Source: Salipaludibacillus neizhouensis
GTDB lineage: Bacteria; Bacillota; Bacilli; Bacillales; Salisediminibacteriaceae
DNA length: 64,000 bases
Direction of reading: 5' to 3'
Assembly: GCF_002886185.1 (NCBI RefSeq)
Contig: NZ_KZ614146.1
Span: 193,927-257,926, forward strand
Part shown: piece by piece, positions 49,121 through 61,536 of the stretch
Position numbering within the stretch: position 1 is the stretch's first letter
Layout of the letters: each line of letters begins with the position of its first letter
Position numbers and translations under genes: made by a program
Notes under the pieces: model-generated
Seen by the model: only the letters and a program-made list of their open reading frames with translations
Told to the model about the DNA's origin: nothing
Databases searched by the model: none

Positions 49121-50143
49121 ATGAAGATGACTATTAAAGAAATTGCTAAGTTAGCGGGTGTTTCGCAAGCAACAGTTTCAAAAATTATTAATAATTATAG
49201 TGATGTTGGTGAAAAAACGAAAAAAAAAGTTTTAAACATCATGGATGAGCATGGATATCGTCCATCCTACTCAGCACAGTCATTAGCGAAAAATGTGACA
49301 AATGTTATCGGAGTAATTTATGCTGGTAAGATTAATGCTCAATTTAACCACCCGTATTTTGTTGAAGTAGTTAGTTCATTTAAAAAAACAATTGGCTTAA
49401 ATGGGTACGACCTTTTATTTTTTTCAAATGAAAGATTTCATAAAGGGGATGAAAACTATCTTGCCCGTTGCGCTCACTATAATGTGGATGGTTGCATTAT
49501 TATTGGGGGAGATGATGTTGAACCGTCCATTTATGATCTCGATCGTAGTACTATTCCCTGCATGGGAGTAGATATCGAGCTCAAGGGAGAAAGGTCAAGC
49601 TATATAATGACGGATAACAATAAAGTATCGAGTTTGACAGTGGAGCATTTTTATATGCAAGGTCATCGAGAAATAGCATTTATTGGCGGTAATGAAGGGT
49701 CTATGGTGACAGAGCAACGATTGCATGCCTTTAAAAATGCTATGACATCTTATGGAATACCTATAAGAGAAGAATGGATTTTGACTGGTGATTATTTTGA
49801 AGAAAGTGGCTATAAAGCGATGAAAAAATTGTTGGCATTCGATAAAGTACCTAGTGCTATTTTTGCTATTTCGGATCTAATGGCGATAGGTGCTTTGCAG
49901 GCTGTGAAAGATGAAGGCTTAAATGTAGAGGATTTTTCTATTATTGGTTGTGATGACATTATTGCATCACAATATGTCGATCCGCCCTTAACAACTGTGA
50001 GACAAAACAAAGAAAAACTAGGAAAGATTGCAGCTCTCATGCTAACGGACATTATTAAGGATAAACTGCAACCTTCTTTTGTTAAAGTTGAGCCAGAATT
50101 AATTATTAGAAAATCATGTAAAGCTAAAAAAATAAGTACTTAA
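49121..50143 (+). CDS. LacI-family transcriptional repressor
   Basis: The 340-residue protein has a LacI helix-turn-helix (TIKEIAKLAGVSQATVSKIINN, here given in part) with the hinge EHGYRPSYSAQSLA and a periplasmic-binding sensor domain ending in TTVRQNKEKLGKIAALML. It is divergent from GH1-ROK and upstream of the importer. Three copies of a CGAAA-CG-TTTCG-like operator flank it, so it probably controls both transcripts and responds to a beta-glucoside. GAAGGAG precedes the ATG. Confidence 0.92.
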   Translation: MKMTIKEIAKLAGVSQATVSKIINNYSDVGEKTKKKVLNIMDEHGYRPSYSAQSLAKNVTNVIGVIYAGKINAQFNHPYFVEVVSSFKKTIGLNGYDLLFFSNERFHKGDENYLARCAHYNVDGCIIIGGDDVEPSIYDLDRSTIPCMGVDIELKGERSSYIMTDNNKVSSLTVEHFYMQGHREIAFIGGNEGSMVTEQRLHAFKNAMTSYGIPIREEWILTGDYFEESGYKAMKKLLAFDKVPSAIFAISDLMAIGALQAVKDEGLNVEDFSIIGCDDIIASQYVDPPLTTVRQNKEKLGKIAALMLTDIIKDKLQPSFVKVEPELIIRKSCKAKKIST

Positions 50144-50222
50144 TTGCTTTTAGAGGAAACGGTTAACCTTCTTGTTTAGAAGGTAGTTTTTAAAATTCTT
50201 AGAGAAATATTGAATAAAGTGC

Positions 50223-50342
50223 TCGAATCCACTCTAGGCGGATGCTTTCCGCGGGCAATGCAACAGACTCCTCGGGAAATTCGTCCCTGTGGGGTCTTCA
50301 GCTATTGCTTTTCCCGAAGGGAGTCGCCGCCTTCGCTGCAGG
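50223..50342 (+). repeat. Full copy of intergenic repeat family A
   Basis: Closely matches 7961-8090 in sequence and orientation, from TCGAATCCACTCTAGGCGGA to GAGTCGCCGCCTTCGCT. Confidence 0.85.
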
Positions 50343-50481
50343 TTTTTATTATTGAATCCATAACTACAACACTTAATTGGTGGTTTTTACTGATACTGAG
50401 ATATTACGAGAGTTATAGCTTGATGAAAATAAACTTGTTGAGAACGTTCTCTTTATCAGGTAATAAAAGTAAAATAAATGA

Positions 50482-50510
50482 TTGACATTAAAATAAGTTG
50501 GATGTAAACT
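50482..50510 (+). promoter_or_regulatory. Promoter of the beta-glucoside importer operon
   Basis: TTGACA (50482-50487), 17 bases, TAAACT (50505-50510); an operator follows 15 bases later, in the usual place for repression. Confidence 0.6.
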
Positions 50511-50526
50511 AACATCAAGAAGTAAA

Positions 50527-50540
50527 CGAAACCGGTTTAG
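50527..50540. promoter_or_regulatory. LacI-type operator 1 of the importer operon
   Basis: CGAAACCGGTTTAG matches the perfect site at 50661 in 12 of 14 positions and lies just downstream of the promoter. Confidence 0.7.
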
Positions 50541-50579
50541 TGAGTATGAAAGAGAATGATTATATTTTTTTGCTGAATG

Positions 50580-50593
50580 TGTAAGCGCTTTAT
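50580..50593 (+). promoter_or_regulatory. cre-like site in the importer leader
   Basis: TGTAAGCGCTTTAT matches 12 of 14 cre positions. Confidence 0.6.
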
Positions 50594-50660
50594 ATTTTTT
50601 AAGTATAATAGTTTTAAAGACTTTTGTTTCTAAACTATATAGGAGTATCAATGTCTTATT

Positions 50661-50678
50661 TACGAAACCGGTTTCGTA
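50661..50678. promoter_or_regulatory. LacI-type operator 2, perfect palindrome
   Basis: TACGAAACCGGTTTCGTA is an 18-bp perfect palindrome centred 136-137 bases from operator 1, allowing a repression loop. Confidence 0.8.
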
Positions 50679-50794
50679 ATAATTGGATGTGTCTTTTGTT
50701 CAGACGATGATTGATTATTTTTAGGAGGTGGAAACTTCTTACTTCATGTTTTCGTGTTATGAAAATGATTAATTAAACTTAGGGGGTAAAATGG

Positions 50795-52144
50795 ATGAAA
50801 AAGTTAGGTTATATTACGATGTTGTCCTTGTTCACATTTTTAGGTGCTTGTTCTGATAATAGTGAAAATTCATCTTCTGATGGAAATGGTGATTCTAACA
50901 CTAATTCAGGCAATGAAGATGCCACTGTCAATGAAGAAAATGAAGGGGAAGAAACCGTTGTAGGTGGAGAAAGCGCTGAAGTGGAATTGTCATTTTGGTT
51001 ATTTGGCGCAACAGGTTATCCAGAATTAGCGAAAGAGTATATGGAGGAAAATCCAGAAATTTCAATCACATTTCAGGAAATAGAGATGGAGGATCATCAC
51101 AATAACTTATTCACAGCTCTTTCTGCTGGAAGTGGTGCACCTGATATGGCGGCAGTAGAGGTATCTGAGATGGGAAGATATCAAGATGCACAGGATCGCT
51201 TCCACAACCTTTATGACCTGGGAGCAAAGGAAATAAAAGGTGATTATCTAGAATGGGTTTGGGAAATTGGCGAAAATGTAGACGGAGACTTTTTGTTTGG
51301 TATTCCAACAGATATTGGGCCGACGGTAATGTTCTATCGTTCAGATGTTTTTGAAGAAGCGGGACTGCCATCAGAACCTGAAGACGTTGAAGCATTAATT
51401 CAAACCTGGGATGATTTTGAAGAAGCAGCAGCTACTATTCTTGAGGAAACAGGCGTCCCAATGGTGGATAACCCTGAATTAATGTTTAATGCTTTGAGAG
51501 ATCAGCAACCACAACAATATTTTGACGAAAATGATGAGTTAATTATCGAATCAACTTCAGATACAAAAGAGTCTTTCATGAAAAATGCCGATTTTATTGA
51601 AAAAGGATATGTTGGCTCGATGGAATTATGGTCCCCTGAATGGGGTGCTGGTATGGCAGAAGGAAACTATGCAACGCTACTTGCGCCAGCATGGATGCAA
51701 GGTCAAATCAAAGACAATGCTCCAGATGCAACGGAATGGAGAATTGCAACGCTTCCAGAAGGTGCCGGTAACTGGGGTGGATCGTGGATCACGATACCTG
51801 CAGAATCAGAACATGCAGAAGAAGCGTATGATTTCTTAACATGGCTGTTATCTCCAGAAGGACAGCTAAAAGCGTTTGAGAATATGGGACTGTTCCCGTC
51901 TGCTCCAGAGGTGTATGAAATGGAGGAGTTTGTAAACTACACGGATGATTATTTCGGAGGGCAGCATACGGCAGAAATTTTTGCTGAGGCTGCTTTACAA
52001 GTAGAGCACGTATACAAAGGGGAACATTATCCGGCTGTAAATCAGGAAATTCAGGATGGACTATATAATGTCCAAGAAGGTGTTGATAAAGAGGAAGAGT
52101 GGGCAGATATTTTAGAACGGGTAGATCAAAGGATTTCACGATAA
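50795..52144 (+). CDS. Sugar ABC solute-binding lipoprotein
   Basis: A signal peptide ending in FLGAC (cysteine near 19) and a long acidic Asn/Glu-rich linker lead into a family 1 sugar-binding fold (SFWLFGATGYPELAKEY; SAGSGAPDMAAVEVSEMG). It heads an importer operon controlled by the LacI-type sites upstream; beta-glucosides such as cellobiose are the likely ligand from context. An overlapping ATG at 50791 is out of frame. The leader of about 285 bases is unusually long. Confidence 0.87.
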   Translation: MKKLGYITMLSLFTFLGACSDNSENSSSDGNGDSNTNSGNEDATVNEENEGEETVVGGESAEVELSFWLFGATGYPELAKEYMEENPEISITFQEIEMEDHHNNLFTALSAGSGAPDMAAVEVSEMGRYQDAQDRFHNLYDLGAKEIKGDYLEWVWEIGENVDGDFLFGIPTDIGPTVMFYRSDVFEEAGLPSEPEDVEALIQTWDDFEEAAATILEETGVPMVDNPELMFNALRDQQPQQYFDENDELIIESTSDTKESFMKNADFIEKGYVGSMELWSPEWGAGMAEGNYATLLAPAWMQGQIKDNAPDATEWRIATLPEGAGNWGGSWITIPAESEHAEEAYDFLTWLLSPEGQLKAFENMGLFPSAPEVYEMEEFVNYTDDYFGGQHTAEIFAEAALQVEHVYKGEHYPAVNQEIQDGLYNVQEGVDKEEEWADILERVDQRISR

Positions 52145-52225
52145 CTTTAGTAACGAGGATAGGTACGGTGCGACGTCCGTGCTGTATCTGCCCTTCATGA
52201 TTTAGTGAAAGGAGGAGGTATTCAT

Positions 52226-53173
52226 ATGTCGTTGGAGTTAGAAAAATCAGTACCCCAAACACCTAAAAAACGAACTTTTTCACAGAAGAAGAAAAATATT
52301 GTATCAGGTTACTTATTTATCTCTCCATTCTACTTACTGTTCCTGATTTTCGGACTATTTCCGATAGGTTTCAGCTTTTATTTAGCTTTTTTCAGTTGGA
52401 ATGGACTCGGAGCAATGGATTTTGTCGGTTTGAATAACTTTGTAATCATCTTTAATGATCCTCTGTTTTGGAAATCTGTTTATAACACGATTGTCATTGG
52501 AGTAATGGGAACCGCGCCGCAACTTATTGTTGGGATATTACTAGCTTTTGCTTTAAACTCTGTATTAATTAAAAGCAAATCCTTGTTCCGGGTGGCAATA
52601 TTTTTACCTTATGTTACGTCAATCGTGGCTGTGGCTATTGTATTCAGTGTATTATTCAGCAATCAGGAATTTGGACTTGTGAATTCTATATTAAGTATTT
52701 TTGGAATAGAACCTATTACTTGGACCCGCTCAGAATGGGGGACGAAAGTTGCGATTTCAGCAATGGTATTTTGGAGATGGCTAGGATATAACACGATTAT
52801 TTATCTTGCAGGGATGCAAGCAATCCCAAATGATTTATATGAGGCGTCAAAAATAGATGGAGCTACGCTAAGGCAACAAATTTGGCATATTACGATTCCT
52901 CTATTAAAGCCTTTTATTTTATTTACAGTATTCACTTCGACCATTGGAGCACTTCAACTTTTTGCAGAACCACATATTTTCCAGGGGCGTGGTGGTAGAC
53001 CAGAAGGAATAACTGTCGTTGTATATCTTTATAGAGAAGCTTTTGATAGTAATTTCTTTGGAACGGCATCCGCTACAGCAATTGCATTGTTTTTCTTAAT
53101 CATTATAATTTCCGCGCTAAATATGTACTTTACTAATCGATTGGGTAATTCGAGTAAGGTGGGATCTAAATGA
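52226..53173 (+). CDS. Sugar ABC permease (MalF-type)
   Basis: The 315-residue permease has a short hydrophilic start, then YLFISPFYLLFLIFGLFPIG and the EAA loop LYEASKIDGATLRQQIWHITIP near 207-228. ATG 52226 follows AAAGGAGGAGG with 7-base spacing. It overlaps the next permease by four bases (ATGA). Confidence 0.9.
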   Translation: MSLELEKSVPQTPKKRTFSQKKKNIVSGYLFISPFYLLFLIFGLFPIGFSFYLAFFSWNGLGAMDFVGLNNFVIIFNDPLFWKSVYNTIVIGVMGTAPQLIVGILLAFALNSVLIKSKSLFRVAIFLPYVTSIVAVAIVFSVLFSNQEFGLVNSILSIFGIEPITWTRSEWGTKVAISAMVFWRWLGYNTIIYLAGMQAIPNDLYEASKIDGATLRQQIWHITIPLLKPFILFTVFTSTIGALQLFAEPHIFQGRGGRPEGITVVVYLYREAFDSNFFGTASATAIALFFLIIIISALNMYFTNRLGNSSKVGSK

Positions 53174-54027
53174 AACAAAATAAAAACGAAGAAATAGGTA
53201 TCAAGAAATTCTCACTGTCAAAATTACTTGTTTACACTATGTTAATCGGAATCTCTCTTGTTTCTTTGTTTCCGTTTTACTGGATGTTTGTTATGGCTAC
53301 GAATTCAAATAACATGATCAATAAAACTCCACCGGTTGTCATTCCCGGTCCTTTTTTTAAAGAAAACTTCGAAAAAGTGCTAGATAGCATCCCTTTTTTT
53401 GGATCAATGCTAAATTCGCTAATTGTAGCATCTTCTGTAACGTTAGGAGTTATCGTTCTTTGTTCACTTGCAGGATTTGCTTTTGCTAAATTAGAGTTTC
53501 CAGGCAGGAATATTCTATTTCTGTTTATTTTAGGGACAATGATGATTCCGCCTCAGTTAGGGTTGATTCCTCAGTATTTTATCATCACAGAGTTAGGATG
53601 GTTAAGCCAATTAAAGGCAGTAATCATACCAGGACTTATGAATGCATTCGGAATATTTTGGATGAGACAATACATTGCAAGTGGGGTTCATGATGAGATA
53701 ATTGAAGCGGCAAGGATTGACGGTTGTTCTAACTTTAGAATCTATTGGAACATTGTTATACCAATGGTTTTACCTGCTTTTGCAACACTTGGTATCATCG
53801 TTTTTATGACAATATGGGGAGACTACATGTGGCCTTTAGTTGTATTGCAAGACCAATCGATGCATACCATTCAAGTAGCTCTGCGATCGTTAATGGATGA
53901 CCGGGTAAGAGATTACGGGATGATTTTATCCGGAACATTCTGGGCAACCGTGCCTTTAATTATCGTATTCCTTTTATTTAATCGTTTGTTTATAAAAAGT
54001 ATTACTGATGGTGCAGTTAAAAGTTAA
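53170..54027 (+). CDS. Sugar ABC permease (MalG-type)
   Basis: The 285-residue permease shows the EAA loop IIEAARIDGCSNFRIYWNIVIP near 177-198 and six helices. It is the last gene of the operon; no ATPase is encoded. A terminator follows. Confidence 0.9.
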   Translation: MKQNKNEEIGIKKFSLSKLLVYTMLIGISLVSLFPFYWMFVMATNSNNMINKTPPVVIPGPFFKENFEKVLDSIPFFGSMLNSLIVASSVTLGVIVLCSLAGFAFAKLEFPGRNILFLFILGTMMIPPQLGLIPQYFIITELGWLSQLKAVIIPGLMNAFGIFWMRQYIASGVHDEIIEAARIDGCSNFRIYWNIVIPMVLPAFATLGIIVFMTIWGDYMWPLVVLQDQSMHTIQVALRSLMDDRVRDYGMILSGTFWATVPLIIVFLLFNRLFIKSITDGAVKS

Positions 54028-54370: not shown

Positions 54371-56056
54371 ATGGGTTTAGCGGCAAAAAAAGTTGTTGCA
54401 CTCTCGATATTAAATGATTCTGTCATAAAAGTAGGAGAAGAGTATATAGATCAAAAATCGGTCGAGTGGATCTCCGTGATCGAAATGCCAGTAGAAAATT
54501 TTGTTCGAGAAAATGAATTTGTTCTTACTACTGGAATAGGATGTCATGGGGATCCAAAGTTATTGGAACAATTTGTGAAAGACGTCATTCAATCAGGTGC
54601 CTCTATGTTAGGAATTGCAACAGGAAGGTATGTTTTCGATTTCCCTGATCAGTTAATTACTTTGGCAAAGAACCATCAATTTCCGATTATCGATATTCCT
54701 TGGGATATTCGTTTTGGTGATATCATGCAGATGGTGTTGGAAGAAATAAATAAAGATAAAAAAACAGAACGGCAGCAATCGGAGGAAGTGAGACAAGAAC
54801 TTATTAACGATGTGTTGCAAAGCAAAGGATTGGAAGAGATTGCGGACGGTATTTTTAAACATATTAAATTGCCGATTATTATTAATGACTACGTTAAAAA
54901 GATTAGAACCTCTAAGCATGTTGAGAAAGATATTATCTCGATTTTCACCCACGAAGAAATGATTCCCACTCAAGACCCAAGTATGTTTGAAGGAACATAC
55001 GTAGATCACCCCCTTTATCCACATATGGAGGAGTATAAAGTTGGGGAACAAAGATGGTACCAACTTTTAATTGCCACAAATCACCGAAAACAAGGGTACC
55101 TTTGGTTTCGTTTAGAGAAAAAAGAGAATTTGACTTGGTTTGTTATGAACGTTTTGGAGCATTCATTAACAGCATGTGCCCTTTATTTTTTAAAAGAGAA
55201 TGCAATAGAAATGACTGAAATCCGATTAAAGGATAATTTTTTGCTACAGTTGTCCAAGGATAAAAAGCCTAATGAACAAGATCTTAAATCAAAAGCACAG
55301 CTTTTAGGCTATGACTTAGATTTGACTTATTTGTGTATAGTGGGTGAAATTAGTTGGAAAGAGGAATATGCGGACTTCCCAAAATTAAAGAAGGATAGTC
55401 CAACCACTTCGTCGTTACAAAGTATAAACTATTACATTCAGAAGGAAGTCACAAATGCTGCAAATTTACTCGATAGAAAAACCATGGCTACGTTTGATGA
55501 AAATGAGGTCATTATCTATTTAGAAACAGATCACCATTTGCATACGGAAACTGCGAATCAGTTTTTGGATACGATTGATCGCCGGTTAAATGAATTGCTG
55601 ACAGAAGTAGAGATGTCTTGGGGGATTGCCGCGCGGAAAAATAATAACAGTGGTTTTCATGAAAGTTACTATGAAGCTAAAACGGCCTTAGAGATTGGGC
55701 AACAGCAATTTGGGTGCGGAGAACGTATCTTTTTTAAAGACACAAGAATTAATCGACTATTAATAACTGTTTCAAGCGATAGCACGGTGAATCAGATAGT
55801 TCAAGATACAATAAAGCCGTTAATTGAGTACGATAAAAAACGAAAGACTGATTTGATTCAAACGTTTATGGCTTACAACAAATATAAGGGCAATGTAAGT
55901 CAAACGGCTAGGGCGCTTAACTTGCACCGTCAATCTCTTCTTTATCGTTTAAGAAATATTGAGTCTTTAACGCAATTATCGTTGGTCAATTCTGATGATG
56001 TTTTCCTTTTGGAATTAAGTATTCGTTTATGGATGTTTCGAAAAATTGAATATTGA
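54371..56056 (+). CDS. PucR-family transcriptional regulator
   Basis: The 561-residue protein has the PucR N-terminal domain (FVLTTGIGCHGDPKLLEQFVKDVI, about 55-80, and FPIIDIPWDIRFGDI near 106), a GGDEF-like middle and the C-terminal PucR helix-turn-helix (TFMAYNKYKGNVSQTARALNLHRQSLLYRLRNIE, about 498-531, given in part). Such regulators usually activate catabolism of nitrogen compounds in response to the substrate. It lies ahead of, and reads toward, the M24-PLP-dehydrogenase operon, which it probably controls. GAGGTG precedes ATG 54371. Confidence 0.9.
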   Translation: MGLAAKKVVALSILNDSVIKVGEEYIDQKSVEWISVIEMPVENFVRENEFVLTTGIGCHGDPKLLEQFVKDVIQSGASMLGIATGRYVFDFPDQLITLAKNHQFPIIDIPWDIRFGDIMQMVLEEINKDKKTERQQSEEVRQELINDVLQSKGLEEIADGIFKHIKLPIIINDYVKKIRTSKHVEKDIISIFTHEEMIPTQDPSMFEGTYVDHPLYPHMEEYKVGEQRWYQLLIATNHRKQGYLWFRLEKKENLTWFVMNVLEHSLTACALYFLKENAIEMTEIRLKDNFLLQLSKDKKPNEQDLKSKAQLLGYDLDLTYLCIVGEISWKEEYADFPKLKKDSPTTSSLQSINYYIQKEVTNAANLLDRKTMATFDENEVIIYLETDHHLHTETANQFLDTIDRRLNELLTEVEMSWGIAARKNNNSGFHESYYEAKTALEIGQQQFGCGERIFFKDTRINRLLITVSSDSTVNQIVQDTIKPLIEYDKKRKTDLIQTFMAYNKYKGNVSQTARALNLHRQSLLYRLRNIESLTQLSLVNSDDVFLLELSIRLWMFRKIEY

Positions 56057-56071
56057 ATGATGATAGTTGTG

Positions 56072-56098
56072 GGCAGCCTTTGGGTTGCCTTTTTTTAA
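56072..56098 (+). terminator. Terminator of the PucR gene
   Basis: Stem GGCAGCC / GGTTGCC with a 4-base loop and eight T. Confidence 0.85.
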
Positions 56099-56332
56099 TG
56101 CGGGAAAGTAAGTTTGCGGATGAATGAGTGGATGGAGCATTGATATGAAAGGGTCGAGCGTTGAGATGAACGCGCAGTGTACTCAAATGAATGGGAAAGG
56201 AGCGGAAATGAGTGCGTAATCGGAAAATGAATACGTCGTGCGTTGAAATGAACGCGTCGTCCTCTCAAATAAACGTGTCAACCCCTTAAATGACCGGGAA
56301 ATCAGTATAAAAATGAGAGGATGACAAACAAA
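56098..56332 (+). repeat. Degenerate 21-bp tandem repeat array
   Basis: Units starting ATGAACGCGTCG-like recur at 56124, 56145, 56166, 56187, 56208, 56227, 56248, 56269, 56290 and about 56311: spacing 21 except one of 19. The consensus is roughly ATGAAYGCGTCGNNCNNTSAA. The period preserves reading frame, and short plus frames read MNAS-like heptads, but stops interrupt them. There are no unrelated spacers, so it is not CRISPR. Confidence 0.85.
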
Positions 56333-56484
56333 GAAACAAAATAGCAGAAAATCTCTCCTAAAGTTGTATAAAAGGCGGTGATAAAACTTCATACACATTG
56401 TACATTACATAATGAAGTGTATTGGAATAGACTGAGAGTAAGAAAAGTCCTAATATTCAGACTTACAAAAGAGAGGTGAATGGA
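56333..56484. promoter_or_regulatory. Upstream region of the M24 operon with a dyad
   Basis: ACTTCAT (56386-56392) and ATGAAGT (56412-56418) form a dyad around an A/T-rich centre and could be the site of the PucR-type activator (inference). No convincing sigma-A promoter was found. Confidence 0.4.
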
Positions 56485-57696
56485 ATGCTACCTTTTGATA
56501 TTTTAGAATATCAAAAACGTATGAATGAAACAAAGGTAAAGATGGAGAGTCGGGGTATTGATGTGCTACTCATAACCGATCCGGCCAATATGAATTATTT
56601 AACAGGGTATGATGCATGGTCGTTTTATGTTCATCAAATGGTAGTGATTATTATTGATGAGCCTCAGCCTATTTGGTTAGGAAGATTTCAGGATGCTAAT
56701 GGTGCCAAAGCGACAACATGGATTTATGATCAGAATATTATTGCTTACCCTGATTATTATGTTCAATCCGATACGCATCATCCGATGGAGTTCTTCGGAG
56801 AAATCATTGAGCAAATCGGACATGGAAATCGAAGAATTGGTGTAGAGATGGATAGCTACTATTTTACGGCAAAAGCTTTTCTTAAATTAAAAGCTTCGTT
56901 AGCGAATGCAACTTTTGTTGATGGAGATCTTCTTGTAAATGAAGTGCGTATTATTAAATCTAATCAAGAAATAGAATATATGAAACGGGCAGCGGTTATT
57001 GCTGATCAAGCAATGTATAAAGGCGTAGATAGAATTCGTGCTGGTATAAGAGAGTGTGATGCCGCAGCAACAATCTACTACAATATGATCTCTGGTACCG
57101 ATGCTTTCGGCGGCGATTATCCGTCAATCGTTCCTTTGATGCCATCCGGTAAAAATACGGGCATTCCACATCTCACTTGGACAGATAGAAAGTTTGAAGA
57201 AGGGGATTCAGTGATCGTGGAATTAGCAGGTTGTTACAAACGATATCATGTGCCTTTAGCACGAACGATCAATATTGGGAAACCATCTTCCCAGTTAGAC
57301 GGAATCATTCCGATTGTGCAGGAAGGGATTCATGAAGTTTTGACAAAAGCAAAACCTGGAGTGACGTGTGGGGAATTAGAAGAAGTATGGCGAAATAGTA
57401 TTGGGCAGTACGGTATAAAAAAAGAAGCGAGACTTGGTTACTCGGTCGGATTAGGGTATCCACCAGATTGGGGCGAGCATACGGCAAGTATTCGAAAAGG
57501 TGATCGAACCGTTTTACAGCCAAATATGACCTTTCACTTAATACCGGCGTTGTGGTTTGATCGATGTGGAGTAGAAATGAGTGAAACGTTCAGAGTAACG
57601 GATGAAGGCTGTGAAACGTTTACGACTTTTCCAAGGGAGTTGGTCATCCAGCATCCTTTTATGATCAGCCAACAGCAAGGTGAGGAAATCAGCTAA
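56485..57696 (+). CDS. M24-family hydrolase, creatinase/DoeA-like
   Basis: The 403-residue protein has an N-terminal creatinase domain (about 1-150) and a C-terminal pita-bread domain (about 165-395). The peptidase metal ligands are not kept: the segment reads VELAGCYKRYHVPLARTI where aminopeptidases have two Asp, and LGYPPDWGEHTASI replaces the His motif. The same pattern occurs in ectoine hydrolase DoeA/EutD, the closest family I recognise; these cleave C-N bonds of small nitrogen compounds. ATG 56485 follows GAGAGG by 8 bases. It heads the operon and its end is 22 bases from the PLP gene. Substrate unknown; see findings. Confidence 0.82.
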   Translation: MLPFDILEYQKRMNETKVKMESRGIDVLLITDPANMNYLTGYDAWSFYVHQMVVIIIDEPQPIWLGRFQDANGAKATTWIYDQNIIAYPDYYVQSDTHHPMEFFGEIIEQIGHGNRRIGVEMDSYYFTAKAFLKLKASLANATFVDGDLLVNEVRIIKSNQEIEYMKRAAVIADQAMYKGVDRIRAGIRECDAAATIYYNMISGTDAFGGDYPSIVPLMPSGKNTGIPHLTWTDRKFEEGDSVIVELAGCYKRYHVPLARTINIGKPSSQLDGIIPIVQEGIHEVLTKAKPGVTCGELEEVWRNSIGQYGIKKEARLGYSVGLGYPPDWGEHTASIRKGDRTVLQPNMTFHLIPALWFDRCGVEMSETFRVTDEGCETFTTFPRELVIQHPFMISQQQGEEIS

Positions 57697-57718
57697 TAAA
57701 AAAAGGGGGATATTTAAG

Positions 57719-58918
57719 ATGAAAAACATAAAAAATGGAACTAAATCAATTTGGGCAGGGGAAAAAGATTATCTGGCTTTTGGAGCGACACAAGTACCGG
57801 TCGTTCATAGTGTATCGTTTGGTTATGATGACATGGATGAATGGTACGATGTAGCGCTTGGTAAAAAAGAAGGGCATATTTATGGAAGAAACACGAATCC
57901 AACAGTTCAGGCTTTCGAGGATAAGATCCGAATTTTAGAAGGTGCAGAAGCGGCAACAAGCTTCTCCACTGGAATGGCAGCGATTAGCAACACACTTGCT
58001 ACTTTCCTGACACCTGGTGATAGAATTGTTTCGATCAAAGATTCTTATGGTGGAACGAATAAAATATTTACAGAATTTTTGCCAAGACAAAAAGTTGACG
58101 TAACGCTATGCGATACAGGTGATCATGAGGGAATGGAAAGAGAAATTGCTAAGGGGTGCGATATTGTTTATTTGGAGACACCAACCAATCCAACCGTGAA
58201 AATAACAGATATTGAAAGAATGGCGAAAGCAGGAAAAGCAGTAGGTGCAATCGTCGTTGTTGATAATACGTTTGCTACGCCAATTAACCAGAATCCTTTA
58301 GCTTTAGGAGCAGACTTGGTTATTCACAGTGCAACAAAGTTTCTGGGTGGGCATGCCGATGCTCTTGGCGGTTCTTTATGCGGATCAAAGGAATTAGTGG
58401 AACAAGTGTATCATTTCCGTGAAATTAATGGAGCAACTCTCGATCCTATGTCCGCTTATTTCTTGTTAAGAGGAATGAAGACACTTCAACTGAGAATCGC
58501 TCGTCAAAATGAAAATGCTATGAAAGTAGCAACCTATTTAAAAACGATCGATATTGTAGAGGATGTTTTTTATCCGGGACTTGAAGACCATCCGGGACAT
58601 GACATCGCGAAGAAACAAATGAACGGATTTGGCGGGATGCTTAGTTTTGCAGTGAAAGGCGGAGTGGATACTGTTCGACATCTGCTACCTAAACTGACCT
58701 ACGCAAATCGAGCAGCAAATTTAGGTTCGGTGGAAACAATTGTTGGGCCAGCCCGCACGACAAGTCATGTTGAATGCACGCCTGAAGAAAGAGCGGCAGT
58801 TGGGATTGCTGAAGGACTTATACGATATTCAGCAGGTATTGAAGACAGTGAGGATTTGCTTGCAGATTTAGAACAGGCTTTTCAAGCTCTTCCTAAACAC
58901 ATTCATGTTCAAGTCTAA
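57719..58918 (+). CDS. Cys/Met-metabolism PLP enzyme (gamma-lyase/gamma-synthase family)
   Basis: The 399-residue enzyme belongs to the cystathionine gamma-synthase/lyase, methionine gamma-lyase family: YGRNTNPTVQAFEDKI near 60, FSTGMAAIS near 88, Asp in VVVDNTFATPINQNPL and the PLP Lys in SATKFLGGHAD (Lys near 207). These enzymes eliminate or replace the gamma-substituent of amino acids. It sits between an M24 hydrolase and a homoserine dehydrogenase, not with sulfur genes, so production of homoserine by gamma-replacement with water, as in canavanine-gamma-lyase, is a plausible role (inference). ATG 57719 follows AAAGGGGGA; an upstream frame start at 57680 is not supported. Confidence 0.85.
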   Translation: MKNIKNGTKSIWAGEKDYLAFGATQVPVVHSVSFGYDDMDEWYDVALGKKEGHIYGRNTNPTVQAFEDKIRILEGAEAATSFSTGMAAISNTLATFLTPGDRIVSIKDSYGGTNKIFTEFLPRQKVDVTLCDTGDHEGMEREIAKGCDIVYLETPTNPTVKITDIERMAKAGKAVGAIVVVDNTFATPINQNPLALGADLVIHSATKFLGGHADALGGSLCGSKELVEQVYHFREINGATLDPMSAYFLLRGMKTLQLRIARQNENAMKVATYLKTIDIVEDVFYPGLEDHPGHDIAKKQMNGFGGMLSFAVKGGVDTVRHLLPKLTYANRAANLGSVETIVGPARTTSHVECTPEERAAVGIAEGLIRYSAGIEDSEDLLADLEQAFQALPKHIHVQV

Positions 58919-58943
58919 CGATTGAAGTGAAGGGGGATTTAAA

Positions 58944-59996
58944 ATGACAGTAAATTTAGCGTTTATCGGTTTTGGAGGCGTTGGTCAGGCATTAGTGAAA
59001 ATTCTTATGGAAAAGCGTGGCTCACTTATTTCGGAGCATGATTTGGATACTCGAATTGTAGCTGTGTCTGATGTCATGAAAGGTTCTGTCTACGATCCAA
59101 ATGGGCTCGATCCCCAAGTGCTCCTGGATACTGTTGAAACTTGGAACCATGTTGAAAAATACCCGGAAAGTCCTACTACAATTAAAGGATGGGACAGTTT
59201 TAAGACAATAAAGGAATCAAATGCTGATGTGATTGTGGAGGTGGCATTTACAAATGTCACCACCGGTCAGCCGGCAATTGATCATTGTCGGACAGCTTTT
59301 GAATACGGAAAAAGCGTGGTGACGACAAACAAAGGTCCTGTAGCCTTAGCATACAAAGAACTAGCTGCTTTAGCTAAAGATAAACAACGGTTTTGGGGAT
59401 TTGAAGGAACTGTGATGAGTGGTACCCCTGCATTACGCCTTCCATTTACCACTCTTGCCGGTAATGAAATTTCTGAGATTAAAGGAATTTTAAACGGAAC
59501 TACTAACTTTATGTTGACGGAAATGGAAAAAGGACTTGAATATGAGGAGGCGTTAAAACTAGCGCAAACAAAAGGATATGCGGAAGCTGATCCGACAAGT
59601 GACGTAGAAGGTTATGATGCTCGATATAAAACAGTGATCCTGGCGAATGTTGTCTTAGATTATCCGCTTACCTCGGAAGACGTTGTTTGTTCGGGAATGA
59701 CAAGTATTACCCGGGAAATGTTGCTTGAAGCGATCAAGCAGAAGAAAAGATGGCGACTAGTGTCTAGACTGAAGTCGAACAACGGAACAGTCGATGCAAG
59801 TGTTGGACTTGAATTGCTGGATGAGAATGACCCTTTAGCGACAGTAAGTGGTGCTCTTAATGCGATTGTTTACGAATGTGATTTGTCTGGTTCTATTTTA
59901 TTAACGGGTGCAGGAGCTGGTTTAAAAGAAACAGGATTTTCATTACTCATTGACCTTATTCATTATCAAAAAGAGAGAAAATTACTGAATATTTGA
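58944..59996 (+). CDS. Homoserine dehydrogenase-like enzyme
   Basis: The 350-residue protein has an N-terminal NAD(P) fold (LAFIGFGGVGQAL), the link VVTTNKGPVAL near 128 and the catalytic domain motif KGILNGTTNFML near 178, followed by YAEADPTSDVEGYDA. It lacks the ACT regulatory domain of the biosynthetic Gram-positive enzyme of about 430 residues, so it is not feedback-controlled in the usual way. In this operon the oxidative direction, homoserine to aspartate semialdehyde, is likely (inference). 25 bases separate it from the PLP gene. Confidence 0.88.
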   Translation: MTVNLAFIGFGGVGQALVKILMEKRGSLISEHDLDTRIVAVSDVMKGSVYDPNGLDPQVLLDTVETWNHVEKYPESPTTIKGWDSFKTIKESNADVIVEVAFTNVTTGQPAIDHCRTAFEYGKSVVTTNKGPVALAYKELAALAKDKQRFWGFEGTVMSGTPALRLPFTTLAGNEISEIKGILNGTTNFMLTEMEKGLEYEEALKLAQTKGYAEADPTSDVEGYDARYKTVILANVVLDYPLTSEDVVCSGMTSITREMLLEAIKQKKRWRLVSRLKSNNGTVDASVGLELLDENDPLATVSGALNAIVYECDLSGSILLTGAGAGLKETGFSLLIDLIHYQKERKLLNI

Positions 59997-60084
59997 TAAA
60001 TAGACGATGTTATCGATTAGTGCTGATTATAGTAAAATCAGTAAGCTTTAACATACCCAATAAATAAAAGGTGGTGTAATAAGA

Positions 60085-61536
60085 ATGCAAACAAAAATAA
60101 TGTCAGAAAAAATGTTTATAGCAGGAAAGTGGCAAGCCGGAAAAGAGACATTTGACGTAGTTAACCCGCAAAATAACGAAGTGATTGCGAAGGTGCCTTT
60201 AGCGAGTAAGGATGACATGATCTCTGCAATAGAGCAGGCTGATGTAGCGTTTCAACATCTCGCTTCCTGGCCCGTACATGAACGGATTAGAGTATTAACA
60301 AGTGCAGCAAATTACTTGCAGGAGCACCACGAATTGTTTGCAGAAACGATTTCACTTGAAGGAAGTAAAACAATAACGGAATCTCGCGGAGAAGTTTCAC
60401 GGGCAATTCAAACGATAAGGATAAGTGCTGAGGAAGCAAGAAGATTAAAAGGGGAAACCATCAATTTTGATCAAAAGGAAGGCAGTGAAAATCGAGTAGG
60501 GTATTACTACCGCTTCCCGATTGGAGTTATTGGAGCAATCACGCCGTTCAATGATCCTTTAAATTTAGTCGCTCATAAAATAGGTCCGGCAATTGCTGCA
60601 GGAAATCCAATTGTTTTAAAACCGGCATCTGTGACACCATTAAGTGCGATTATGCTAGCAAAAGCATTTGATCAGGCAGGCATTCCAAAAGGATTTCTTT
60701 CGGTAATTACAGGAGCAGGCAGAGAAATAGGGGAAGTGTTGGTGACGCATCCGGCTGTAAAAATGGTTTCGTTTACGGGAGGACTAGAAGCAGGCAAGCA
60801 TATTGCTCACCAAGCCGGTTTGAAAAAAATAAGTATGGAATTGGGATCAAACTCCCCGGTGATCATTTTAAATGATGCGTGCTTAACTGAAGCAGTTGCT
60901 TCAACAGTATCAGGAGCATTTTCTGCCGTAGGGCAAAATTGTATCGGTGTTCAACGAATTTATGTGGAAGAAGCCATTTATGATACATTTCTGCAAAAAT
61001 TTATTGAGAGGACAAAAGAGCTTCAAGTGGGAGACAAAATGTCTGAGTGGACGGATATGGGTCCGCTTATTCAGGAAAAAGAGGCAATTCGAGTCGAGGA
61101 GTGGGTGCAAGAAGCATTGATGGAAGGCGCTACACTTGAAACTGGAGGCACAAGAGATGGTGCTTTTTATGACCCAACTGTACTAACAAATGTGTCTCAT
61201 GATTCTAAAGTTTATTATGAAGAGATATTTGGTCCAGTTGTCATCATTGAATCGATTCAAAACATTCAAGAAGCTGTAAAGCGTGCGAATGAAGTTGAGT
61301 ATGGCTTACAAGCAGGGATATTCACGAAAAATTTAGATGATGCCTTCTATACGGTTCAAAAACTTCATGTTGGCGGTGTCATGGTCAATGATAGCAGTGA
61401 CTATCGGATCGACGAGATGCCTTTTGGTGGAGTAAAAGGTTCTGGATTAGGTCGAGAAGGTGTGAAATTCTCTATGGAGGAAATGACAGAGCCAAAGGTT
61501 GTTTGTTTTAAGTTAGGTAACACGTGGGGGATGTGA
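60085..61536 (+). CDS. NAD(P)-dependent aldehyde dehydrogenase
   Basis: The 483-residue protein has the aldehyde dehydrogenase core: TPFNDPLNLVAHKIGPAIAAGN near 152-173, the general base Glu in SMELGSNSP near 254 and the nucleophile Cys in VGQNCIGVQR near 285. With a homoserine dehydrogenase just upstream, aspartate semialdehyde to aspartate is the obvious candidate reaction (inference); succinate-semialdehyde or lactaldehyde-type activity is the alternative. A GGTGG ribosome site precedes ATG 60085. Its 3' end overlaps the convergent EamA gene by 24 bases. Confidence 0.9.
   Translation: MQTKIMSEKMFIAGKWQAGKETFDVVNPQNNEVIAKVPLASKDDMISAIEQADVAFQHLASWPVHERIRVLTSAANYLQEHHELFAETISLEGSKTITESRGEVSRAIQTIRISAEEARRLKGETINFDQKEGSENRVGYYYRFPIGVIGAITPFNDPLNLVAHKIGPAIAAGNPIVLKPASVTPLSAIMLAKAFDQAGIPKGFLSVITGAGREIGEVLVTHPAVKMVSFTGGLEAGKHIAHQAGLKKISMELGSNSPVIILNDACLTEAVASTVSGAFSAVGQNCIGVQRIYVEEAIYDTFLQKFIERTKELQVGDKMSEWTDMGPLIQEKEAIRVEEWVQEALMEGATLETGGTRDGAFYDPTVLTNVSHDSKVYYEEIFGPVVIIESIQNIQEAVKRANEVEYGLQAGIFTKNLDDAFYTVQKLHVGGVMVNDSSDYRIDEMPFGGVKGSGLGREGVKFSMEEMTEPKVVCFKLGNTWGM

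Follow-up and report, generated by a model that had tools for sequence, protein, structure and literature searches.

A five-gene operon and a proposed route from ectoine to aspartate

The window analysed here, 64,000 nucleotides of Salipaludibacillus neizhouensis, a salt-loving relative of Bacillus, contains an operon whose five genes, all on the + strand, encode a PucR-family transcriptional regulator, an M24 enzyme resembling the ectoine hydrolase DoeA, a pyridoxal-phosphate (PLP) enzyme of the Cys/Met family, a homoserine dehydrogenase (HSD) and an aldehyde dehydrogenase (ALDH). We consider it fairly probable that the operon serves ectoine catabolism and that its PLP enzyme turns 2,4-diaminobutyrate (DABA) into homoserine, which would then pass through aspartate semialdehyde to aspartate. 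All five open reading frames (ORFs) are present, on the + strand, where the original prediction had placed them. PucR occupies 54371..56056 (PF07905, PF17853 and PF13556 above cut-off) and is followed by the M24 protein, of creatinase/prolidase fold, at 56476..57696 (PF00557/PF01321, likely start ATG 56485) and the PLP enzyme at 57680..58918 (PF01053; NF006097/PRK08249, likely start ATG 57719); both likely starts were judged by ribosome-site-like sequence. The HSD, at 58944..59996, passes PRK06270 with 415.9 bits against a cut-off of 373, and Pfam lists no ACT domain on it. The ALDH at 60085..61536 belongs to PF00171, with no equivalog passed among the 25 NCBIfam models shown.

In the proposed route, ectoine, either made by the cell itself or scavenged, would have its ring opened by the DoeA-like M24 enzyme to yield N-acetyl-2,4-diaminobutyrate (ADABA). 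A deacetylase, for which an M20 gene stands in the operon of many relatives and which is presumably encoded elsewhere here, would release DABA. The Cys/Met-family PLP enzyme, in place of the transaminase DoeD, would take the gamma-amino group off and put water on, giving homoserine and ammonia; HSD, working in the oxidative direction, would then make aspartate semialdehyde, and ALDH would make aspartate. PucR would control the operon, probably through an inverted repeat before the M24 gene. What each enzyme acts on and forms, which way the dehydrogenase runs and where the regulator binds are all predicted from sequence.

A DABA transaminase gives aspartate semialdehyde directly and does not need HSD, whereas a gamma-acting enzyme that gives homoserine does. 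The homoserine route is proposed because the transaminase is missing, a PLP enzyme of gamma-acting type is present and an extra HSD stands before the ALDH, and because one relative in which the PLP gene has been replaced has dropped PLP and HSD together (see below). Moreover, the tail of the operon looks to be of the homoserine-to-aspartate type, since the window ALDH is nearer to the ALDH that neighbours a B3/4-linked PLP gene of Pseudomonas (L210, 51% identity) than to the Caballeronia dehydrogenase taken as the DoeC reference (35%). The original prediction had read the last genes as a catabolic chain from homoserine by way of aspartate semialdehyde to aspartate, and the family assignments support that chain; its hint at ectoine, with an ectoine-derived diaminobutyrate among the candidate substrates, is borne out by the DoeA likeness of the M24 gene.

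Linkage and gene replacement

Conservation was followed within the bacterial family in a sample of 35 genomes, with 31 loci, window included, fetched from 30 of the 32 PLP-positive genomes (G006 and G018 were left out, and G022 contributes two). The PLP family and a DoeA-like M24 protein (E<=1e-60) each occur in 32/35 genomes, and the same three genomes, G015, G032 and G033, lack both; the M24 match in G018 is partial, with a stop. Beside the PLP gene in the 31 loci stand M24 in 28, PucR in 24, HSD in 23 and ALDH in 23, with all five together in 22. Given the occurrence of the PLP family in nearly all these genomes and the retention of its neighbours across the fetched loci, the five-gene set is not there by chance. 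No DoeD-like ORF, that is, no class-III transaminase of that type, was found in the 31 loci (E<=1e-30). An M20 amidohydrolase lies between PLP and HSD in three of them (L054, L057 and L064; one was domain-scanned), and a sodium symporter of the SNF family faces away from PucR in 14. Ectoine synthase is encoded in 35/35 family genomes and 0/14 controls, so these bacteria are probably ectoine producers.

Departures from the common arrangement are of several kinds. In L039, L040 and L062, M24-PLP occurs without HSD/ALDH. The PLP gene lacks an M24 neighbour in L044, L055 and L067; in the genomes of L044 and L067 (G021 and G014), PucR-M24-HSD-ALDH stand together elsewhere, with the PLP gene apart. 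In L045 and L066, two different DoeA-like M24 genes flank the PLP gene, and no HSD/ALDH adjoins. L055, the second PLP-family copy of G022, lies beside a gamma-glutamyltransferase gene and ORFs resembling a peptide ATP-binding cassette (ABC) transporter, of which only the transferase was scanned.

The association extends to the order, which we sampled with 299 genomes and 14 controls at thresholds of E<=1e-180 for the PLP enzyme and E<=1e-115 for DoeA-like M24. The PLP family was found in 87 genomes and the M24 protein in 85; 83 hold both, 4 the PLP enzyme only, 2 the M24 protein only and 210 neither (Fisher p 3e-66, kinship ignored). In 83/83 genomes the closest PLP and M24 genes share a contig and are at most 5,335 bases apart; in 63 the distance is at most 3 kb. 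At the same thresholds the PLP family was found in 0/14 controls and the M24 protein in 1/14, none above the DoeA cut-off. Twenty stretches were read from 19 of the order genomes, and 13, among them L242, which is the Priestia plasmid itself, hold M24 and PLP. These 13 include HSD and ALDH in 11, M20 in 10 and eutB or eutC in 6; none has a DoeD-like gene (E<=1e-30). In L246 and L254, M24-PLP stands without adjoining HSD/ALDH.

The two M24-only genomes of the order both carry a class-III aminotransferase (PF00202). One of them, L235, reads eutB-PucR-M24-eutC-M20-ALDH-class-III aminotransferase, with PLP and HSD both gone; judged by gene content, a class-III transaminase has taken the place of both in an otherwise matching operon. 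Among the PLP-only genomes, G466 and G555 show PLP-HSD-ALDH-permease. In another, G473 (L238), the PLP gene is near genes for a lipoamide dehydrogenase, a sigma-54 regulator, a MarR regulator and a spore-germination permease. The fourth, G520, has ORFs of about the same sizes as G473, and several ORFs of L239 and L241 are sized as in L238, the one of the three that was scanned.

The PLP enzyme belongs to a distinct subfamily

The window PLP enzyme passes NF006097/PRK08249 with 750.7 bits against a cut-off of 600. The methionine gamma-lyase model TIGR01328 gives it 392.4 bits and is not passed (cut-off 549.7), and none of the models shown for methionine gamma-lyase and cystathionine gamma-synthase reaches its cut-off; the closest solved relatives of the enzyme are methionine gamma-lyases. 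It is 79% identical to a Priestia homologue and 63% to a Klebsiella homologue, both of which sit in hydroxyectoine/ectoine clusters. Four further full-length PF01053 genes are present in the genome. In a tree built without these four paralogues and without 14 other rows, the NF006097 family forms a clade supported 100/100 against 10 other PF01053 rows. The nearest forks around the window protein are weak (88/48), but the group of 26 rows that also takes in Priestia, Shouchella and Halobacillus is supported 97/86.

Seven residues (W13, Y37, W43, G147, C148, E236 and P345, with numbering counted from base 57716) are identical in all 61 aligned family members; neither nine PF01053 proteins from outside the family nor five B3/4-linked ones have them. 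All 61 members likewise carry G344, which also occurs in one of the nine. G344-P345 lie within GPARTTSH, where methionine gamma-lyases carry QHPASMTH, and E236 is aligned with the Asp of their KD pair; this Glu may hold the gamma-ammonium group of DABA. The Cys of methionine gamma-lyase that we take to be its active-site residue aligns with a Gly in the window enzyme.

The M24 protein resembles DoeA

The best NCBIfam model for the window M24 protein is TIGR02993 (DoeA), at 471.4 bits. Because this falls below the curated cut-off of 613, we term the protein DoeA-like and not DoeA. Its best solved match is DoeA 6twk (E 4.7e-111), aligned over nearly the whole length. Among 178 columns invariant in seven annotated DoeA proteins, the window protein keeps 126 and other family M24 proteins 118 to 133. 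The same count gives 126 for a haloarchaeal M24 protein and 108, 113 and 143 for three rhizobial plasmid M24 proteins without DoeA annotation, so the count alone does not separate DoeA. A PF01053 gene near the archaeal M24 gene (L230) proved to be an O-acetylhomoserine sulfhydrylase outside NF006097. By alignment, the prolidase D, D and H positions, presumably metal ligands, correspond to E249, P260 and Y322 in the window protein. The protein is described here as a putative ectoine-hydrolase-like enzyme, with ectoine as its predicted substrate.

Related clusters on plasmids and in other phyla

A tblastn search of plasmids gave some match in 634 records, 34 of which hold a member of the PLP family (60-80% identity). 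On two Priestia plasmids the genes run PucR, eutB, pdxS, M24, cyclodeaminase (eutC), PLP, M20, HSD and ALDH, followed by a ProP or major facilitator superfamily (MFS) transporter; the PucR of this Priestia cluster and that of the window share 41% identity. Two Klebsiella plasmids carry eutC, a eutB-like gene, ehuABCD, a MocR-type regulator, doeA, doeB and PLP, with PLP directly after doeA-doeB; no class-III transaminase is annotated in these clusters, where the gene table is incomplete. A PLP gene at 63% identity was seen on 27 Klebsiella plasmid records and one from Pluralibacter; in the two Klebsiella records read, it is the last gene of a cluster for uptake and degradation of ectoine/hydroxyectoine, with insertion sequences alongside. 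Nine plasmid stretches around DoeA matches were also read, six of them with annotated doeA and doeB. Four of the six contain a semialdehyde dehydrogenase and a PF00202 transaminase, the other two end at the edge in the dehydrogenase, and the PLP gene of this family is annotated in 0/6. The three other stretches, whose M24 proteins lack a DoeA annotation, are not of the canonical kind.

From a scan of GTDB contigs, the best 80 of 596 matches were listed; 22 of these are members with identities from about 60% upward, followed by a gap to 43% and below among the matches listed. M24 is present in 9 of these 22 loci, one of which (L075, Salipaludibacillus aurantiacus S9) is the same record as family locus L065 (G025), the two agreeing letter for letter over 19,194 bases. 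Among the nine, Halobacillus has eutC, Marinithermofilum has eutB and an EhuB-like protein, Shouchella has M20 and a metagenome-assembled genome of Acidimicrobiales has doeB. One short contig reads M20-PLP-HSD-ALDH. Paenibacillus has PLP-HSD-ALDH and a permease without M24. Two Pseudomonas loci have ALDH (one also a labelled HSD) and no M24, and in one Bacteroidota locus the sole partner is a distant M20. Class-III transaminases near L077, L078 and L080 were considered as counter-examples and set aside, being an ornithine transaminase in L077 and L078 and EctB in L080; the EctB gene of Marinithermofilum (L080, 1489-2802), for ectoine biosynthesis, lies beside the catabolic cluster.

In a sample of the genus Pseudomonas, 45/249 genomes pass the PLP-family cut-off. 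Of 22 Pseudomonas PLP loci (L092, L093 and L189-L208), 21 carry a labelled ALDH and 18 a labelled HSD, and 18 have both. Recurring genes at these loci, named from L092, encode a permease resembling S-methylmethionine permease, LysR, a threonine-synthase-like protein and Lrp. The PLP family thus sits with HSD and ALDH even where M24 is absent, as in Pseudomonas, Paenibacillus and G466/G555. The substrate of the Pseudomonas operon might, at a guess, be imported diaminobutyrate.

Putative canavanine-type operons carry a different PLP enzyme

Canavanine, a candidate substrate in the original prediction, was followed through the B3/4 domain (PF03483), the mark of genes resembling canavanyl-tRNA deacylase (CtdA). 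A search of 20 Pseudomonas genomes gave 10 matches other than PheT, in G118, G151, G192, G199, G204, G210 and G256. Eight of the 10 were fetched: five have a Cys/Met PLP gene and ALDH nearby (four also HSD) and three have none. The five B3/4-linked PLP proteins are 32-35% identical to the window PLP enzyme; the two that were scanned reach 279 and 297 bits where NF006097 requires 600, and the three placed in the tree form a separate clade. From their linkage to B3/4, they appear to be canavanine-gamma-lyases. The window genome (G000) has no standalone B3/4 protein, its only such domain being that of PheT, and no Rfam family reached its gathering score over the window, so that no guanidine riboswitch was found there. 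Given the different PLP subfamily, the PheT-only B3/4 domain and the lack of a riboswitch match, the canavanine suggestion does not hold up. Pseudomonas members of NF006097 were themselves rejected as canavanine enzymes, as standalone B3/4 genes do not adjoin them in the 20 genomes and two further genomes have PheT only.

The control region and upstream genes

The gap that separates pucR from the M24 gene holds, at 56365-56395 on the + strand and upstream of M24, an inverted repeat of 31 bases, TGTATAAA-N15-TTCATACA. The pattern has one match in the window and none in 100 shuffles. A slightly looser form stands upstream of 16/30 family M24 genes, with no further site in those loci, and is absent upstream of the other 14. 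The repeat is the best operator candidate, at which PucR would probably bind. A pattern scan also marks a hairpin (56071-56090, + strand) followed by a T run 3' of pucR, a likely terminator spanning 56071..56096; the scan finds 10 such sites in 7.9 kb against 6.1 expected in shuffles, and is weak evidence by itself. Within the same gap, 56143-56266 holds degenerate 21-base direct repeats in three copies, 71-76% like the reference copy, with further half-copies seen by eye. Directly upstream of pucR, at 49121-54027, ORFs judged by eye to encode a LacI-like regulator, a binding protein and two permeases look like a carbohydrate ABC transporter. As they form part of no shared cluster in the 31 family loci, they are probably unrelated to the operon.

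Discussion

Several observations weigh against ectoine breakdown through homoserine. To our knowledge, no PLP enzyme of this kind has been described to release ammonia from C-gamma of DABA. Neither M24 nor deacetylation fits the curated models: TIGR02993 is passed in 0/299 order genomes, with the window protein also below it, and a weaker DoeA-like M24 match occurs in one of the 14 controls, Haloferax volcanii. DoeB is found in 0/35 family genomes, the window operon has no M20 gene, the best M20 protein of the window genome is only 37% identical to the operon type, and the operon-type M20 itself scores 242 against a DoeB2 cut-off of 550. No ectoine transporter adjoins the window operon, the sodium symporter of the 14 family loci has only a 46% identical homologue in the window genome, and no eutB/eutC homologue (E<=1e-25) was found in the 31 family loci. 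Beside the Klebsiella PLP gene there is no HSD, and the sole ALDH, seen in one record, is separated from it by a transposase gene and encoded on the opposite strand. Of the two transaminase-bearing M24-only loci, L236 is weaker evidence than L235, because its aminotransferase passes the cut-off for gamma-aminobutyrate (GABA) transaminase and lies beside a semialdehyde dehydrogenase; it may be unrelated. Finally, 8 of the 22 GTDB loci listed lack any reference partner, some of them on short contigs. As only 9 of these loci have M24, the PLP enzyme is not confined to ectoine.

As a first alternative, ectoine could be broken down with the PLP enzyme gamma-eliminating DABA to 2-oxobutyrate and two ammonia, leaving HSD and ALDH to salvage a side product or serve another branch. 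The methionine gamma-lyases as nearest solved relatives suit this, as do the M24-PLP pairs without adjoining HSD/ALDH in Klebsiella, L039, L040, L045, L062, L066, L246 and L254. We regard it as unlikely nonetheless, because HSD and ALDH accompany PLP in 23/31 family loci, 11/13 order loci with M24 and PLP, and 18/22 Pseudomonas loci, and because the transaminase version in L235 has no HSD, as expected if HSD serves the homoserine route alone. Alternatively, the PLP enzyme might act on N-gamma-acetyl-DABA, whose alpha-amino group is free, to give acetamide and homoserine without any deacetylase. The absence of a deacetylase gene from the window operon and of DoeB from all 35 family genomes would then be explained, and DoeA of H. 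elongata is described as yielding both alpha- and gamma-ADABA (PMC5924519). Acetamide, by established chemistry a poor leaving group, makes this reaction distinctly improbable; moreover, the M20 gene inside the operon in 10/13 order loci with M24 and PLP, and the Klebsiella doeB preceding PLP, point to free DABA.

The enzyme could also be a gamma-lyase for some other gamma-substituted 2-aminobutyrate that M24 frees from an amide or cyclic precursor. PLP genes with an amino-acid permease and no M24 (Pseudomonas, Paenibacillus, G466/G555), the L055 copy beside gamma-glutamyltransferase and the 8/22 listed GTDB loci without a reference partner are in keeping with such a substrate. The associations with eutB, eutC, doeB, EhuB and ectoine synthase, together with replacement by a class-III transaminase, argue for ectoine, and we give another substrate only a small chance. 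Catabolism of canavanine, or of a hydroxyguanidine-type compound, has in its favour the partner genes: at a B3/4-linked Pseudomonas locus (L210), HSD shares 44% and ALDH 51% identity with the window proteins. It seems highly improbable in view of the other PLP subfamily (32-35% identity) and the lack of a standalone B3/4 gene and of any riboswitch found in the window; nor do we know of a role for an M24 enzyme in the canavanine pathway. Biosynthetic transsulfuration or methionine synthesis shares only the fold family with the window enzyme, and its probability is negligible: NF006097 is passed but no model shown for methionine gamma-lyase or cystathionine gamma-synthase is, an HSD without a listed ACT domain, a PucR regulator and an M24 partner are unlike a methionine operon, and the genome has four other full-length PF01053 genes.

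Ectoine breakdown by way of homoserine is thus the reading that we favour, and it invites a broader one, which we hold more tentatively, with the odds perhaps slightly against it. NF006097 could comprise L-2,4-diaminobutyrate gamma-lyase/hydrolases that constitute a second lower pathway of ectoine, standard in Bacillales and plasmid-borne into Enterobacteria, with the core found in Pseudomonas and Paenibacillus consuming DABA imported by an amino-acid permease. In the literature collection searched, there was no report of PLP-dependent gamma-elimination of diaminobutyrate, nor one joining ectoine, a gamma-lyase, HSD and diaminobutyrate, nor, judged by title, one on an ammonia-lyase leading from diaminobutyrate to homoserine. 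If the reading is right, many Gram-positive bacteria degrade ectoine, a major osmolyte and nutrient, with a third step unlike the textbook transamination. A large unassigned family, present in 87/299 order genomes and 45/249 genomes of the Pseudomonas sample, would gain a substrate, a new PLP reaction would be open to direct test, and the lower breakdown of ectoine and of canavanine would share one kind of homoserine-to-aspartate module.

The cluster itself has a forerunner in the literature. In 2018, ectoine consumers were held to be restricted to Proteobacteria (PMC5924519), and in April 2026 putative ectoine clusters were described in Bacilli, Clostridia, Actinomycetes and Halobacteria (PMC13188858). 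In the latter paper, the Bacillales cluster reads pucR-eutBCD-atf / abgB-thrA-adh / eutD-msf; the PLP position is named atf (aminotransferase), thrA is said to reduce aspartate semialdehyde to homoserine, the HSD is left unexplained and, in the parts consulted, no lower pathway is offered. Its eutD-eutC-atf-abgB-thrA-adh corresponds to the M24-eutC-PLP-M20-HSD-ALDH of Priestia (L070), L243 and L244. Since the gene orders match, atf is very probably this PLP gene, and the window operon, which lacks eutB, eutC and abgB, is very probably a shorter version of the same system. The idea of a new operon therefore survives only in part: a putative Bacillales ectoine cluster of matching gene types and gene order had been put forward in PMC13188858, with the PLP gene called an aminotransferase. 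Our analysis adds the membership of this gene in the Cys/Met family, its link to HSD and, in one genome, the presence of a transaminase in its place, which together suggest conversion of DABA to homoserine. If so, the HSD of the 2026 description would be explained and the atf label corrected.

Comparison with known systems

With the canonical DoeABCD/EutDE-Ssd-Atf pathway of Proteobacteria, the window operon has in common an M24 enzyme, here predicted to open the ring, and an aldehyde dehydrogenase for the last step. In canonical clusters doeA-doeB are followed by a class-III transaminase and a semialdehyde dehydrogenase (PMC5924519); the window operon differs in having no DoeB and no class-III DoeD in the cluster, in its added HSD, in its PucR regulator, where EnuR/AsnC is found in the canonical case, and in an ALDH with only 35% identity to the DoeC reference. 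The canavanine-gamma-lyase operon of Pseudomonas and Rhizobium has a PLP enzyme acting at the gamma carbon and feeding HSD and ALDH by way of homoserine, as the window operon would. There the PLP enzyme is of another subfamily, whereas the window operon has an M24 gene and no CtdA (standalone B3/4). Methionine gamma-lyases (PDB 7bqw, 6lxu and 1e5e) share the fold family, the PLP lysine and the Tyr-x-Arg motif with the window enzyme, in which their YGC is replaced by YGG, QHPASMTH by GPARTTSH and KD by RE.

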